A stretch of 39,114 nt of DNA from a virus. Where the stretch lies: the IMG/VR virus record IMGVR_UViG_3300020498_000008, positions 1 through 39,114 of that record; one strand, 5' to 3'. Under the pieces are notes generated by a model. That model was given only the letters and a program-made list of their open reading frames with translations, searched no databases and was not told where the DNA came from. Every line of letters starts with the position of its first letter. The stretch's first letter is position 1. Shown here one piece after another: positions 8 to 38,554 of the stretch. A program made the position numbers and the translations under genes.

Positions 8-1438
8 TTAGTAAATCTCCCTCCATTGAAGAGCAGCAGCAACGCCAGCAGTGGCATTACCAGTAGTAGTAATGGTTCTTACAACAAGCACATAAATTTC
101 AGAGTTTGTTGAATCTATATTTTGAACAATAATATTTTTCTTTGCCTGACTTAATGTTCCAGAAGCAACTGGTGAAAGTGAGTTTTGTGATGCACCAGAA
201 GGAACATAACCAGATGCAAAAACATCACCATTATTGTAAGTTGTTGCATTAATACAAAACTCAACACCACTATTATCAGAAGCAGAAGTCCAAGTTAAAG
301 TTCCTGCATTACTCAAATAAGCAGAACTTGGAAGTTTTATAACTTTATAAACAATACTATTGGTCTCACAAAATAATGAAAGATTATTTAATTTGACTGA
401 TATTCTATTTGGATATCCCTGAAAAATATTTTTGAGACGAATGGCAACCAAAGGAAGTTCTGTTCCTGCTGGTGTTGGTGTGGTTCTTGTAGTAGTCATT
501 GTATAAGCAAAGTCAATACCACTTTCTACATATCCACCTTCTGACATCACAGAAGAACAAATCTGATCAAATGATGCTCCAATACCTACACCAGTATTTC
601 GGAGTTCGCAACGAACTGGTAGGTTTGGATTTGCAATATAAACTGTGCTCTGATAGTTAGAATGGTTGAATTCGTGTGCGGTGATGAGTTGTCCATTATG
701 AGCAAATCCACAACGAACTCTACCAACACCTAACCACTGAAAATCTATAAATGCAAGTTGAGTTTTTGTAATGTCTAAATTAAATCCAGAAATTCCTGTT
801 CCATCACATTTATCTCTGTTCCATTGTGATTGTGGAATTCTTGTTTCTGTTGCAATTCCACTTACAAAAGTTCTGATTACCCAATTGTTTGTTCCAATAC
901 CAGGATTTATTCCATCAGAAGTATTAAGACCAACCTGTTCAAAATAAATTCCGTCTCTATCATCAAAATATCCAGTTCTTTTAGTTGCATTTTGTTGAGG
1001 GGCATAAAAATTGAAAGAACTAAAAATTAGTTGTCCTTTTCCTGGTTGATAGTGATGATAAAACTTTGTTTGGTGAACACTAAATGCAGTTGTTCCAATA
1101 CCAGTTTGTAATCTTGCACACGCTTGGTTTTGCAAAAATGTTACTGTTGAACCAGCACCAGAAACACTATCTAAAAAGTTTGGGTCAATAGCATATAAGT
1201 GCTTGTAGTCGCCAAGAGTAAAGGGTTCAGAAACTCTATTTCTACCAAATGCATCAACAGCATTTGTATCTGGATTAATAGTTACAAGAGTTTCTGATGA
1301 TATTCCAACAGTTCCAGTGACTGGAAATGGATTATCGAGTGTAACAACCTCGCCATTTTTATTGGCGATCATATTTACTTCAAAAAGAGTTCTCTCTTGA
1401 TTTAAAAAATCTTGAGTACTTTTATTAAATTGTGCCAT
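8..1438 (-). CDS. virion structural protein, cyanophage conserved
   Basis: This 476-aa protein lies at the end of the virion gene run, after gp16 and two other genes. It resembles a conserved T4-like cyanophage structural protein. The recognisable part is near the N-terminus: NPFPVTGTVGI at about residues 36-46 and AFGRNRVSEPFTLGDYKH at about 63-80. The body is rich in Gly, Thr and Asn with few charged clusters, as in beta-rich virion surface or fibre proteins. I see no signal peptide, membrane segment or enzymatic motif. The gene starts three bases after the upstream small gene ends, so the two are probably co-transcribed. An ATG at 2-4 just after its stop suggests another gene starts at the window edge. 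The exact virion location is unknown. Confidence 0.7.
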   Translation of the reverse strand: MAQFNKSTQDFLNQERTLFEVNMIANKNGEVVTLDNPFPVTGTVGISSETLVTINPDTNAVDAFGRNRVSEPFTLGDYKHLYAIDPNFLDSVSGAGSTVTFLQNQACARLQTGIGTTAFSVHQTKFYHHYQPGKGQLIFSSFNFYAPQQNATKRTGYFDDRDGIYFEQVGLNTSDGINPGIGTNNWVIRTFVSGIATETRIPQSQWNRDKCDGTGISGFNLDITKTQLAFIDFQWLGVGRVRCGFAHNGQLITAHEFNHSNYQSTVYIANPNLPVRCELRNTGVGIGASFDQICSSVMSEGGYVESGIDFAYTMTTTRTTPTPAGTELPLVAIRLKNIFQGYPNRISVKLNNLSLFCETNSIVYKVIKLPSSAYLSNAGTLTWTSASDNSGVEFCINATTYNNGDVFASGYVPSGASQNSLSPVASGTLSQAKKNIIVQNIDSTNSEIYVLVVRTITTTGNATAGVAAALQWREIY

Positions 1439-32627: not shown

Positions 32628-33383
32628 TCAGATAATTCTTGTTTTTTCGTGACCAACTCTAATACGAGGGTCGCACCAAATCTCAAAACCTGCTTCTTTT
32701 GCATCTAAACAGAATGATACATCTTCTCCACACATATCCTGAACTTCTCCAGATTCAAATACTTGCATCTTAGGAGCAAACCAAGGATACTTCATTTCTG
32801 GATGTTCGAATACTCCATTCTTAATAAGAAGCCAACCAAAACCAGTATAGTCTACAGTAAATGGTTTACGACGCTTTGAAATACTCTCTACGGTTTCATG
32901 ATTCATTACTCCACCATTATTACGGAAATCATCTTCTTCTAACCAGTGAGCAACAGAAGTTGTAACACCATCTTCAGTAGCATACCAACCAGCTGAGATG
33001 TCTTGGTCCATCAGAATAAGTTGCCAGAAATTATTGGTATTAAAAACAATATCAGAATCAATCCATAATTGCCAATCATATTTTAATTTGCCGTCCCAGG
33101 GAATCTGATTCGGTCCTCGCAGAACATTCGCCCCTAAACACTTGCATCTTGCAAAGTTTACCATCGAAGAATAATCTTGCGAAATTTGAATGCTTGCCCC
33201 TGCCTGCACTAAGTCAAAGCAAAGCTGTACAAAATTCTTTAAGTAAGTGTAAGAAACTCCTCGACCAGGCAAACAGAATACAACGGACTTGCCGCGCACC
33301 ATTTCTTTTGCCAGGTCATAATCCCATTCCTGTGTTTGTGAAGCTACAGGCGTTTTTGCCTTTACAGTAAATCCTTTAGCCAT
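32628..33383 (-). CDS. GT-A-fold glycosyltransferase-like protein
   Basis: This 251-aa protein looks like a GT-A nucleotide-sugar transferase. VVFCLPGRGVSYTYLKNFVQ (about 34-53) fits the first Rossmann unit. The metal/sugar-nucleotide motif is WIDSD at 107-111 (DxD = Asp109-Ser-Asp111). The acceptor-side motif CGEDVSFCLDAKEAGF (about 218-233) is followed by His245 near the C-terminus, the usual GT-A order. Cyanophages commonly carry such genes; they may modify virion proteins, DNA or host surface sugars, and the substrate is unknown. A near-consensus sigma70 promoter lies 23-51 bases upstream. No Shine-Dalgarno is obvious, so it is probably an early or middle gene leading the cluster to speD. 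Confidence 0.8.
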   Translation of the reverse strand: MAKGFTVKAKTPVASQTQEWDYDLAKEMVRGKSVVFCLPGRGVSYTYLKNFVQLCFDLVQAGASIQISQDYSSMVNFARCKCLGANVLRGPNQIPWDGKLKYDWQLWIDSDIVFNTNNFWQLILMDQDISAGWYATEDGVTTSVAHWLEEDDFRNNGGVMNHETVESISKRRKPFTVDYTGFGWLLIKNGVFEHPEMKYPWFAPKMQVFESGEVQDMCGEDVSFCLDAKEAGFEIWCDPRIRVGHEKTRII

Positions 33384-33434: not shown

Positions 33435-33605
33435 TTAGTCTCTTTCTGAGAGGATTACTTCATTTCCCTCTATTGAAAGTTTTATCTCAGTATCTTCGTA
33501 CCAAGAAAGTTCATTCATAATGTGCTCTGGAATAATTACAAAGTATTCGCCTGTAATTGGATCGACTTGTATGGACTCAAAAATATCTCCGGAATTTTTT
33601 TTCAT
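33435..33605 (-). CDS. 56-aa AbrB-like DNA-binding-type protein
   Basis: The product begins MKKNSGDIFESIQVDPITGE, continues YFVIIPEHIMNELSWYEDTE and ends with a beta strand (IKLSIEGNEVILSERD). The pattern of strand, xxIPxxxxNELxWxxxTE and strand is that of SpoVT/AbrB swapped-hairpin domains. Such small proteins recur in T4-like cyanophages, where they are annotated AbrB-like or hypothetical. It could be a transcription regulator or antitoxin-like peptide. It is only about one domain long, so it would need to dimerise. A TATAAT box lies about 30 bases upstream. Confidence 0.72.
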   Translation of the reverse strand: MKKNSGDIFESIQVDPITGEYFVIIPEHIMNELSWYEDTEIKLSIEGNEVILSERD

Positions 33606-33634: not shown

Positions 33635-33640
33635 ATTATA
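33635..33640 (-). promoter_or_regulatory. -10 box TATAAT upstream of the AbrB-like gene
   Basis: A perfect TATAAT lies 29 bases before the ATG at 33605. No convincing TTGACA is seen 16-18 bases further upstream, so the promoter would depend on the -10 or an activator. A T4-like TCTAAATA element lies further upstream at 33670-33677. Which one is used is unclear. Confidence 0.45.
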
Positions 33641-33731
33641 TAGTATCCGGAATTTTTTAAAGAGTGAGATATTTAGAGGTCGATTTGGGTCGTTTATAGC
33701 TTAGGGTAGTGATGCGTTTTTATATCGCGGG

Positions 33732-37586: not shown

Positions 37587-37616
37587 ATTCTCAATAACTA
37601 AGGTCTTATTGAGAAT
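37587..37616. repeat. perfect 11-bp inverted repeat ATTCTCAATAA
   Basis: ATTCTCAATAA (37587-37597) and TTATTGAGAAT (37606-37616) flank an 8-base spacer. A further half-site, TTGAGAAT, follows at about 37633. The 15-mer TTGATTCTCAATAAG on the minus strand here is repeated exactly at the 38311-38346 element. It could be a bidirectional hairpin or an operator. The gap 37569-37664 holds no other feature. Confidence 0.6.
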
Positions 37617-37664
37617 CAATAAGGACTATTAATTGAGAATAAGGACAATATTCAAACTGTCACA

Positions 37665-37817
37665 TTAATCAAACGGATCGAATTCCCTGATGCTAGAATA
37701 AACTTCCTCGTCACCTTCGAGTTCCAGTAACTCTTTCCAATCGATATCATGTACATCTAGATCATCATAACACATGATGTCTAATGTAACACGGACTAGG
37801 CGTTTCTGTGCTAACAT
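37665..37817 (-). CDS. 50-aa acidic conserved cyanophage protein
   Basis: The product reads MLAQKRLVRVTLDIMCYDDL, DVHDIDWKELLELEGDEEVY, then SSIREFDPFD. The pattern of KRLVRVTLDI, YDDLDVHDIDWKELL and an acidic end is, as I recall, a common small cyanophage protein. I chose the ATG at 37817 over the internal one at 37775. It restores the KRLVRVTLDI strand and puts a perfect TATAAT 26 bases upstream. No Shine-Dalgarno. Function unknown. Confidence 0.72.
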   Translation of the reverse strand: MLAQKRLVRVTLDIMCYDDLDVHDIDWKELLELEGDEEVYSSIREFDPFD

Positions 37818-37843: not shown

Positions 37844-37872
37844 ATTATATCATGCATAATGACGATATGCAA
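37844..37872 (-). promoter_or_regulatory. promoter TTGCAT-17-TATAAT
   Basis: On the minus strand TTGCAT (37867-37872) and a perfect TATAAT (37844-37849) are exactly 17 bases apart. The -35 lies inside the last codons of the upstream 50-aa gene and its TGA abuts the -10. It drives the 50-aa gene starting at 37817. The same TTGCAT-17-TAYAAT layout is used at 38033-38061. Confidence 0.65.
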
Positions 37873-38002
37873 GTGCTTCGAGATCATGTGTATCTCGTGC
37901 ATAATCCTCGTCGAGATCTAGTGCATCAGATGCATAATACTCGTCGAGATCGTATGAGTAATCTGTTGCGTATGTATAGTCGAGATCGTAGTCGTCGTAC
38001 AT
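37850..38002 (-). CDS. 50-aa Asp/Tyr-rich repeat protein
   Basis: The product reads MYDDYDLDYTYATDYSYDLD, EYYASDALDLDEDYARDTHD and ends LEALAYRHYA. It is extremely acidic and built from YDLDxxY-type repeats; the DEDYARDxxxLxALAYRHYA end resembles small cyanophage proteins I recall. The start at 38002 is preceded by a TACAAT box 30 bases away. A longer reading upstream would run through the promoter and repeats. The repeated codons GAT-CTC-GAC-GAG that give DLDE are also part of the DNA palindrome that recurs in the non-coding leader. Function unknown. Confidence 0.62.
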   Translation of the reverse strand: MYDDYDLDYTYATDYSYDLDEYYASDALDLDEDYARDTHDLEALAYRHYA

Positions 38003-38032
38003 AGCTCGTCGAGATTGTATGAATGCTTGTGT

Positions 38033-38061
38033 ATTGTAGCACAAATCTCGACGAGATGCAA
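38033..38061 (-). promoter_or_regulatory. promoter TTGCAT-17-TACAAT with palindrome in the spacer
   Basis: TTGCAT (38056-38061) and TGC-TACAAT (38033-38038) are exactly 17 bases apart on the minus strand. One perfect ATCTCGACGAGAT copy (38045-38057) fills the spacer and overlaps the -35, as an operator would. It is 30 bases upstream of the Asp/Tyr-rich gene start. Confidence 0.6.
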
Positions 38062-38153
38062 GAACTAGATGTAGTCTCGTCGAGATCTTATGATAGTATA
38101 TATGTAGTCTAGTCGAGATTTGTGTGCTTCTAGACACATAAGATCTCGTCGAG
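38040..38153 (-). other. candidate structured leader RNA with competing inverted repeats
   Basis: CTCGTCGAGATCTTATG (38076-38092) is complementary at 16 of 17 positions to 38137-38153. Inside it GTCTAG (38107-38112) pairs with CTAGAC (38130-38135). A third pairing, 13 perfect bases between 38040-38052 and 38112-38124, crosses the first, so the long stems cannot all form as a simple nested fold. This layout suggests an attenuator-like or switch-like leader, or simply inverted duplications of the repeat. Confidence 0.45.
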
Positions 38154-38182
38154 ATTCTATCACGAACTTATAAGAATGTCAA
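38154..38182 (-). promoter_or_regulatory. strong promoter TTGACA-17-TAGAAT
   Basis: A perfect -35 (38177-38182), a 17-base spacer and TAGAAT (38154-38159, 5 of 6) form a near-consensus sigma70 promoter. The expected start site (about 38147) lies in the centre of a perfect ATCTCGTCGAGAT palindrome (38143-38155). It would produce a leader of about 145 nt rich in inverted repeats before the Asp/Tyr-rich gene. Confidence 0.7.
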
Positions 38183-38404
38183 GGTCCTGGGGATTTCGGC
38201 GCGTCGTGGGGCTTGACAAACTGCGCGTCTTATGCTAAACAGACTTAGCCCACAAGAACTGGAGGGGTTTAGAAGACTTATAACACTCTATTCTCAACAA
38301 TAATACTCAATTGATTCTCATTAATATTATACTTATTGAGAATCAAATAAAACAGTAATATATGTTTTTTAATACCTTTTTTAATTAAATTTAAGTTAAA
38401 AACA
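38183..38404. other. non-coding stretch between the 49-aa gene and the strong promoter
   Basis: No coding gene is supportable here. It holds the 10-bp inverted repeat with central TATAAT (38311-38346) and a half-site at about 38290. It also has two direct GCGCGTC copies (about 38200 and 38224), and a small hairpin GCTAA/TTAGC at about 38234-38249. A GC-rich patch at 38190-38230 contains a plus-strand TTGACA without a good -10. No tRNA fold was recognised. Confidence 0.4.
38311..38346 (-). promoter_or_regulatory. operator-like inverted repeat centred on a TATAAT box
   Basis: Perfect 10-bp arms TTGATTCTCA (38311-38320) and TGAGAATCAA (38337-38346) flank 16 bases. A TATAAT on the minus strand (38326-38331) sits exactly in the middle, five bases from each arm. 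One arm plus flank is identical (15 bases) to the element at 37587-37616. The half-site TGAGAATC resembles half of a Fur-type box; this resemblance is weak. Confidence 0.5.
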
Positions 38405-38554
38405 CTATAAAACTGGTATAATTTCAGTATTTTGGCATCCTTGACTCTTTACATACTTCTCCCAATCATTAGCATCCTCAATCGTATAGAAAGTTACGAT
38501 TTGTTTTGAGAATGCTTTCTTCTTTGGTTTGAGATAGATGACTTGGTACTTCAT
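38405..38554 (-). CDS. 49-aa basic conserved cyanophage protein
   Basis: The product reads MKYQVIYLKPKKKAFSKQIV, TFYTIEDANDWEKYVKSQGC, then QNTEIIPVL. It has a strand-helix-strand pattern; small proteins with MKYQVIYLKPKKK are familiar to me from T4-like cyanophages. A longer reading in another frame (38478-38750) covers this region but gives a less plausible product. There is no clear Shine-Dalgarno before its ATG. Function unknown. Confidence 0.75.
   Translation of the reverse strand: MKYQVIYLKPKKKAFSKQIVTFYTIEDANDWEKYVKSQGCQNTEIIPVL

Follow-up and report, generated by a model that had tools for sequence, protein, structure and literature searches.

An array of near-palindromic sites over two promoters in cyanophage genomes is a probable operator of a phage AbrB/MazE-fold protein

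We describe an array of near-palindromic sites that runs through a small gene and the promoters before it, and that is probably a multi-site operator by which a phage repressor of the AbrB/MazE fold closes early promoters. The window (the whole stretch of DNA that was analysed) is a 39,114-base IMG/VR virus record, and the annotated phages closest to it are T4-like cyanophages that infect Synechococcus and Prochlorococcus.

Results

The original prediction held that near-palindromes recur at this locus, and we found eight copies of ATCTMGWCKAGAT with at most two mismatches at 37905-38155, far above chance (Table 1). The whole window contains 11 such matches, compared with 2.88 expected and with 9 in the richest of 100 shuffles; eight of the 11 make up the array and the remaining three are scattered over the window, while every match with at most one mismatch lies inside the array. 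The exact form ATCTCGWCGAGAT occurs twice, as palindromes 5 and 8 (expected 0.00), and half-sites read by eye extend to about 37878. The array spans a gene of 50 amino acids, its start codon and then two sigma70-type promoters, with copies 1-3 in the gene, copy 4 at the ATG and the rest in the leader. As had been predicted, one exact copy fills the spacer of the proximal promoter and the other covers the start of the distal one. Repressor operators classically lie in just these places, between the -35 and -10 boxes or across the transcription start.

Table 1. Positions in the window of the array, its promoters and the genes discussed (-, minus strand)
Feature	Positions	Strand	Remarks
Candidate repressor, 56-aa AbrB/MazE-fold protein (phrog_661)	33435..33605	-	
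CTATATAA box before candidate repressor	33636..33643	-	conserved in relatives
Next gene downstream of the 50-aa gene, 50 aa, phrog_12516 (unknown function)	37665..37817	-	
50-aa acidic Asp/Tyr-rich gene (MYDDYDLDY...LAYRHYA)	37850..38002	-	sites inside codons
Half-site ATCTCGT	37892..37898		within YARDT codons; read by eye
Palindrome 1, TCCTCGTCGAGAT	37905..37917		in coding DNA, DLDE codons
Palindrome 2, TACTCGTCGAGAT	37938..37950		in coding DNA, DLDE codons
Palindrome 3, GTATAGTCGAGAT	37974..37986		in coding DNA
Palindrome 4, AGCTCGTCGAGAT	38003..38015		directly before ATG of the 50-aa gene
Proximal promoter TTGCAT-17-TACAAT	38033..38061	-	-35 at 38061-38056, -10 at 38038-38033
Palindrome 5, exact, ATCTCGACGAGAT	38045..38057		in proximal promoter spacer, overlaps 2 bases of its -35
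Palindrome 6, GTCTCGTCGAGAT	38074..38086		upstream of proximal -35
Palindrome 7, GTCTAGTCGAGAT	38107..38119		
Palindrome 8, exact, ATCTCGTCGAGAT	38143..38155		over start of distal promoter
Distal promoter TTGACA-17-TAGAAT	38154..38182	-	palindrome over likely start

The sites had also been described as phased at steps of about 33 bp. Within the array the steps are 33, 36, 29, 42, 29, 33 and 36 bp (mean about 34), and when the spacings of primary arrays were pooled, 30-33 and 40-43 bp were preferred, with 16-17, 24, 29 and 35-36 bp also common. A loose preference of spacing thus stands, but strict helical phasing is not supported: for 348 primary-array spacings R was 0.26 at 10.5 bp (0.29 at 11.0), many spacings being off phase, and the Rayleigh p of the spacing phase, tiny as it is, ignores shared ancestry.

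Two other features were noted around the array. The locus is bracketed by direct and inverted copies of TTATTGAGAATCAA at 37605-37641 and 38289-38346, about 650-730 bp apart, and similar words, TTGAGAAT, stand near arrays in other contigs. The adjoining region at 38213-38420 carries a divergent TTGACA-17-TA promoter (read by eye) followed by an AT-rich stretch with a GC content of 0.17; matching origin-like regions are found in the fetched loci L009 (2600-3140), L007 (3560-3860), L189 (1180-1420) and L194 (1150-1340).

The same layout was read in S-SRM01, P-SSM2 and S-T4, and exact matches to TCTMGWCKAGAT in P-SSM2, S-T4 and S-SKS1 fall at this locus only. A second set of sites in S-T4, of the same layout and near the other end of the record, is probably a terminal repeat. 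S-SRM01 has additional sites: a further array at 90.9 kb, 5 kb from the locus, three more loosely grouped sites at 88.1 kb, and isolated copies. At the S-SKS1 locus complete sites are scarce and half-sites ATCTCGT prevail, with 9 of the 16 copies in the genome lying within the 450-bp locus; here (L007 3130-3530) the array appears decayed to, or replaced by, direct half-sites, and the protein, read by eye, repeats YARDT instead of DLDE. Two scans of viral contigs for site pairs returned at least 120 and 68 stretches. The collected loci hold 177 arrays of at least three sites, of which 112 are non-redundant and comprise 706 sites, the commonest single site being ATCTAGTCGAGAT (98 of 706).

We then asked how the sites lie relative to the promoter. 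From 120 matches to the 50-aa gene we obtained 90 non-redundant motif-selected loci, most of them fetched for having two close sites. The proximal promoter was chosen in each as the best sigma70-like one whose -10 box falls 20-70 bp upstream of the ATG, ignoring the palindromes, and two loci were dropped because the promoter score was insufficient, leaving 88. A spacer site, with its centre at -15 to -10 counted from where the -10 box begins, was present in 77 of the 88, where about 11% are expected from the mean site density; sites also lie at +19 to +34 in 84 loci and at -50 to -38 in 61. The proximal -10 box is exactly TATAAT in 51 of the 88, but many -35 boxes are poor, only 48 agreeing with TTGACA at four positions or more. 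The 11 loci that lack a spacer site include S-T4 and S-SKS1. In 15 rows of the motif-selected loci the distal promoter is the best one, with a site centred at +10 from its -10 box.

As a control for selection, loci were fetched with the 50-aa protein alone, taking the best 80 of 371 stretches that encode a relative. These 80 are the closest relatives of the window protein, some on contigs shared with the motif-selected set; one leader was too short, and 47 loci were non-redundant. The original prediction had named the loss of leader palindromes in relatives that keep the protein as the observation that would speak against a functional array. All 47 loci retain at least two leader sites at up to two mismatches, and under the stricter limit of one mismatch 45 still have a site and 37 have three or more. 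The spacer site is present in 39 of the 46 protein-selected loci with a proximal promoter. Sites thus cover promoter elements in a register conserved in both sets, the anatomy expected of a repressor operator cluster, and the proposal of protein-binding sites at these promoters is well supported.

The sites inside the 50-aa gene appear to be constrained as well. Across 90 relatives, the final 11 codons show 9,735 synonymous and 3,349 non-synonymous one-base differences (10,289 and 14,219 when all codon differences, including two- and three-base ones, are counted), and the first codons of 61 genes beginning MYDDYD gave 1,018 synonymous and 600 non-synonymous differences. The DLDE codons are nearly fixed: among 118 motifs, GAT is used in 116, CTC in 110, GAC in 111 and GAG in 112, compared with 480 of 806 (GAT), 121 of 283 (CTC) and 115 of 232 (GAG) for the same residues elsewhere in these genes. 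From this codon bias and the synonymous excess, the 50-aa gene looks truly coding, with its sites kept at the DNA level, in agreement with the earlier proposal that selection for DNA sites shapes the protein. The protein gave no confident fold in a structure model (pLDDT 59) and no match in a Pfam search as a single sequence. The small Asp/Tyr gene is present, without annotation, in the published S-SRM01 (L006 5650-5790) and S-T4 (L008 2608-2754) genomes.

A candidate for the protein that binds the array emerged from a comparison of genomes, in which S-SRM01 ORFs of at least 45 aa were searched (E 1e-3) against three array-bearing genomes (S-SKS1, S-T4 and P-SSM2) and four array-less ones (DSL-LC03, S-SCSM1, the first 200 kb of Bellamy, and S-SM2). 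Four S-SRM01 frames were shared by every array-bearing genome and missing from each array-less one. One encodes a 58-aa protein annotated as 'DNA-binding domain-containing protein', whose homologue in the window is the 56-aa candidate of Table 1; of the other three, one has 536 aa and two are short and on the minus strand. As a single sequence the S-SRM01 protein had no match in Pfam. Within its family, a match to PF04014 (MazE_antitoxin) was obtained for 16 of 36 members, with 9.7e-5 as the lowest E-value; the window member scored E 0.042 and 14.2 bits, below the cut-off of 24.7. The AbrB model TIGR01439 matches nine of the 36 (best 0.002), the window member not among them. An AlphaFold model (pLDDT 87.5, pTM 0.58) gave the monomer a beta-beta-alpha-beta-beta fold, its first two strands being two-residue bridges only. 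The best matches among PDB structures were MazE, AbrB, SpoVT and VapB, well above unrelated rows, with Foldseek E-values of 0.055 or worse at probabilities up to 1.00 and structural alignments of Z 6.6 at most (SpoVT, Z 6.4, 1.1 Å over 45 residues); a PDB search by sequence alone with the regulator profile gave nothing credible. On the predicted fold and the genome comparison, this phage protein is likely to be the regulator of the array. The idea that the 50-aa gene regulates itself, raised in the original prediction, was close without being the best reading: the regulator would be another gene, AbrB/MazE-like in fold and linked to the array, the 50-aa product being acidic and without a confident fold.

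The regulator gene seems to be driven by a promoter class other than that of its target. A [CA]TATATA box is found 15-60 bp before the regulator ATG in 78 of 81 relatives (background 0.6%), the CTATATAA-like box standing some 30-40 bp before the ATG, whereas neither TATAAATA nor TTGACA-16..18-TANNNT precedes the regulator in any of the 81, and no palindrome with at most one mismatch lies within 400 bp upstream of it in any of 76. The CTATATAA-like box possibly represents a separate promoter class. In P-SSM2 and S-T4 it also stands before the adjacent gene, which encodes 251 or 252 aa. A late promoter had been considered for the regulator; TATAAATA, the T4 late promoter, precedes 24 of 192 S-SRM01 ORFs of at least 120 aa (0.8 expected), and with 0 of 81 regulators carrying it this candidate was rejected.

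The regulator is linked to the array. Of named records, a non-random set, the regulator is in 5 of 5 with the array and 3 of 10 without; AG-345-F15 (array-bearing), S-CAM7, ACG-2014f and Sf-CH5 entered the set on account of their regulator relative (S-CAM7 had also come up through the downstream gene), and we give no p value. Downstream of the array and on the same strand, the regulator was found in 15 of 18 non-redundant motif-selected loci and in 18 of 20 protein-selected loci with at least 7 kb of downstream sequence. Both are present in 28 motif-selected loci; they share a strand in all 28, and in 27 the regulator follows the array at a distance of 2.6 to 10.7 kb. The motif scans also yielded 35 contigs of at least 40 kb, which are fragments and some of which have only two sites or chance matches; of these, 25 had a regulator match of E 9e-9 or better, three a weak one and seven none. 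Relatives of the regulator occur in 91 phage records, the check for arrays covering those that were fetched. A sample of the 80 closest loci fetched through gp25 had the regulator in 38 of the 39 with at least 2.7 kb upstream, but of the 19 with 5 kb or more upstream only seven had three-site arrays (arrays of at least two sites in 9 of 80, many loci being short), so within this lineage the presence of the regulator says little about its linkage to the array.

S-CAM7, ACG-2014f and Sf-CH5 carry a regulator relative without the array, and by this pattern the protein has other targets or another site in them. A search for a changed motif in 24-kb regions of ACG-2014f and Sf-CH5 turned up no 7-mer with five occurrences within 300 bp. 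S-CAM7 (L190 1096-1260) has a repeat array of its own, ACTGCG / CGCAGYATATA, without a match to TCTMGWCKAGA, upstream of a homologue of the phrog_12516 gene. The share of CTAG half-sites differs with the type of regulator, being 0.21 for YED and 0.37 for YEG (p 0.0016; 44/50 rows; relatedness uncorrected).

Further arrays occur without the 50-aa gene. In the secondary arrays of this kind that were read closely, the sites follow at shorter steps, frequently of 24 bp, separated by GCACACAT-like spacers; promoter scores are mostly near those of shuffles in a class of 50 that still includes some primary arrays. Stoperators are defined by their place between co-directional genes or at the ends of such genes. 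Among 26 hand-picked secondary arrays, some of them near-duplicates, 17 lie between co-directional ORFs (55 aa or more) and four overlap an ORF, while 11 have one end no more than 5 bp from an adjacent stop codon. Tandem 24-bp units made of the palindrome and a GCACACAT-like spacer stand between genes at L048 6629-6714 and L144 3734-3819, and some tandem 24-bp arrays begin right after a stop codon.

Discussion

Taking the array, its fit to the promoters, the codon constraint, the predicted fold and the linkage as read from sequence, we infer that the phage AbrB/MazE-fold protein would bind ATCTMG-W-CKAGAT as a dimer. Upon entry the host sigma factor would drive both promoters. The regulator would then fill the proximal spacer, the distal start and the neighbouring sites into the 50-aa gene, and the occupied sites would keep host RNA polymerase from using both promoters. 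The regulator gene lies 4.2 to 4.4 kb downstream of the array in the same gene direction, behind the different promoter-like box CTATATAA; its product may accumulate later and then silence the early cluster, as a delayed negative feedback. The extra arrays between cluster genes in relatives may block elongation.

The same anatomy would serve a host protein, for example a cyanobacterial AbrB-like or other repressor, in which case the early genes would follow the state of the host, or the array would titrate the protein: the promoters are of sigma70 type, and operator anatomy is silent on the identity of the binder. However, when one genome each of 84,980 bacterial and archaeal species was scanned for two close copies (contigs of at least 3 kb), seven stretches were found, none of them cyanobacterial, and the gene linked to the array is phage-encoded with a predicted DNA-binding fold; we consider a host binder unlikely. 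Small hairpins in the leader and coding RNA that control translation or decay would account for the site directly before the ATG, overlapping the ribosome-binding region, in the 15 leaders shown, and for the site at +19 to +34 from the -10 box in 84 of 88 loci. This RNA-level reading is very unlikely, because the commonest site, ATCTAGTCGAGAT, breaks a pair near its centre; the spacer site, moreover, is upstream of the proximal transcript. Neutral expansion of the repeat out of the DLDE codons into the leader, also raised at the outset, would explain the codon-word repeats in and beside the gene, but the promoter register is conserved in diverged relatives, the codon bias is kept over divergence and arrays exist without such a gene nearby, which makes expansion very unlikely.

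The array had also been proposed to be the iterons of an origin; it would then load an initiator beside the AT-rich region at 38280-38420. In the relatives read, the adjoining region has a divergent promoter (by eye) and an AT-rich stretch, which in S-SRM01 is the lowest-GC 120-bp window, and TTWTCCACA occurs within 1 kb in DSL-LC03 (7 of 13 in the genome), S-SKS1 (3 of 9), S-SM2 (2 of 4) and S-SCSM1 (1 of 7), but not within 1 kb in S-SRM01, P-SSM2, S-T4 or Bellamy. The region is retained without palindromes in DSL-LC03, S-SM2 and AG-345-O18, and the palindromes track promoters, with extra arrays elsewhere. Cumulative GC skew in six whole genomes has no consistent switch at the locus; the detrended maximum is at 65.7 kb in P-SSM2, close to the locus, and at 67 kb in S-SRM01, not close to it. 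Iterons are thus a quite improbable function of the array, and the region beside it, with DnaA-box-like TTWTCCACA in some phages and not in others, is a candidate replication origin. A more far-reaching scheme would make the 56-aa AbrB-fold protein a master off-switch that silences the early cluster through promoter operators and stoperator-like arrays, with operators in the codons of a disordered acidic protein, a possible antagonist, and, beside an origin, with early shut-off and replication coupled; we give it a small chance.

The multi-site operator of a phage repressor, which we favour, may be how marine and freshwater cyanobacterial viruses switch off early genes. It names a candidate regulator, a likely site and target promoters in the sequenced isolates P-SSM2, S-SRM01, S-T4 and S-SKS1, and makes early-gene control in T4-like cyanophages that lack MotA, AsiA, Alt and Mod a testable question. 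The array is also a recognisable DNA signature for cyanophage metagenomes. In the literature searched, which was thin on subscription journals, we found no description of the array or of its combination with operators in a conserved small gene, and no papers naming PSSM2_098, PSSM2_102 or phrog_661.

AbrB-fold repressors, operator arrays and stoperators are each of known kinds. T4-like cyanophages are taken to be lytic, and the stoperator site of Cluster A mycobacteriophages is about 13 bp long, as here. In Cluster A (L5-type) phages, as in the system proposed here, a phage protein has sites at early promoters and many elongation-stopping sites elsewhere (PMC9283540; PMC6550527). Cluster A phages are temperate; their repressors are of the helix-turn-helix type, and their sites are asymmetric and for the most part share one orientation. 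The cyanophage sites, unlike these, are near-palindromes in packed arrays and lie both ways round within single arrays.

The swapped-hairpin proteins MazE, AbrB and SpoVT resemble the regulator in predicted fold, in the size of the DNA-binding domain and in an operator over promoter elements. Published accounts describe the mazEFG operator as an alternating palindrome within promoters (PMC4803016) and MazE6 as binding an 18-bp operator that bears the -10 region (PMC9477884). In contrast to MazE-type antitoxins, the regulator has no room for a toxin-binding tail, nearly all of its 56 aa falling within the modelled DNA-binding fold. The gene beside it (32628-33383) encodes 251 aa and was not recognised as a toxin. 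Unlike autoregulated MazE-type antitoxins, the regulator has no array site upstream of its own gene (0 of 76), its target being a separate gene cluster.

AbrB-type domains are reported for transcription factors of some jumbo phages (PMC7824862). A cyanophage MarR-type factor is likewise a cyanophage-encoded transcription factor, but is of a different family and is reported to act on a host gene, that for RNase E (PMC9692554). Cyanomyoviruses are without motA, asi, alt, modA and modB, and their early and middle mechanism was called still unclear in a 2010 review (PMC2984593). The control proposed here would resemble that by T4 MotA, AsiA, Alt and ModA/B in ordering early expression on the host polymerase.
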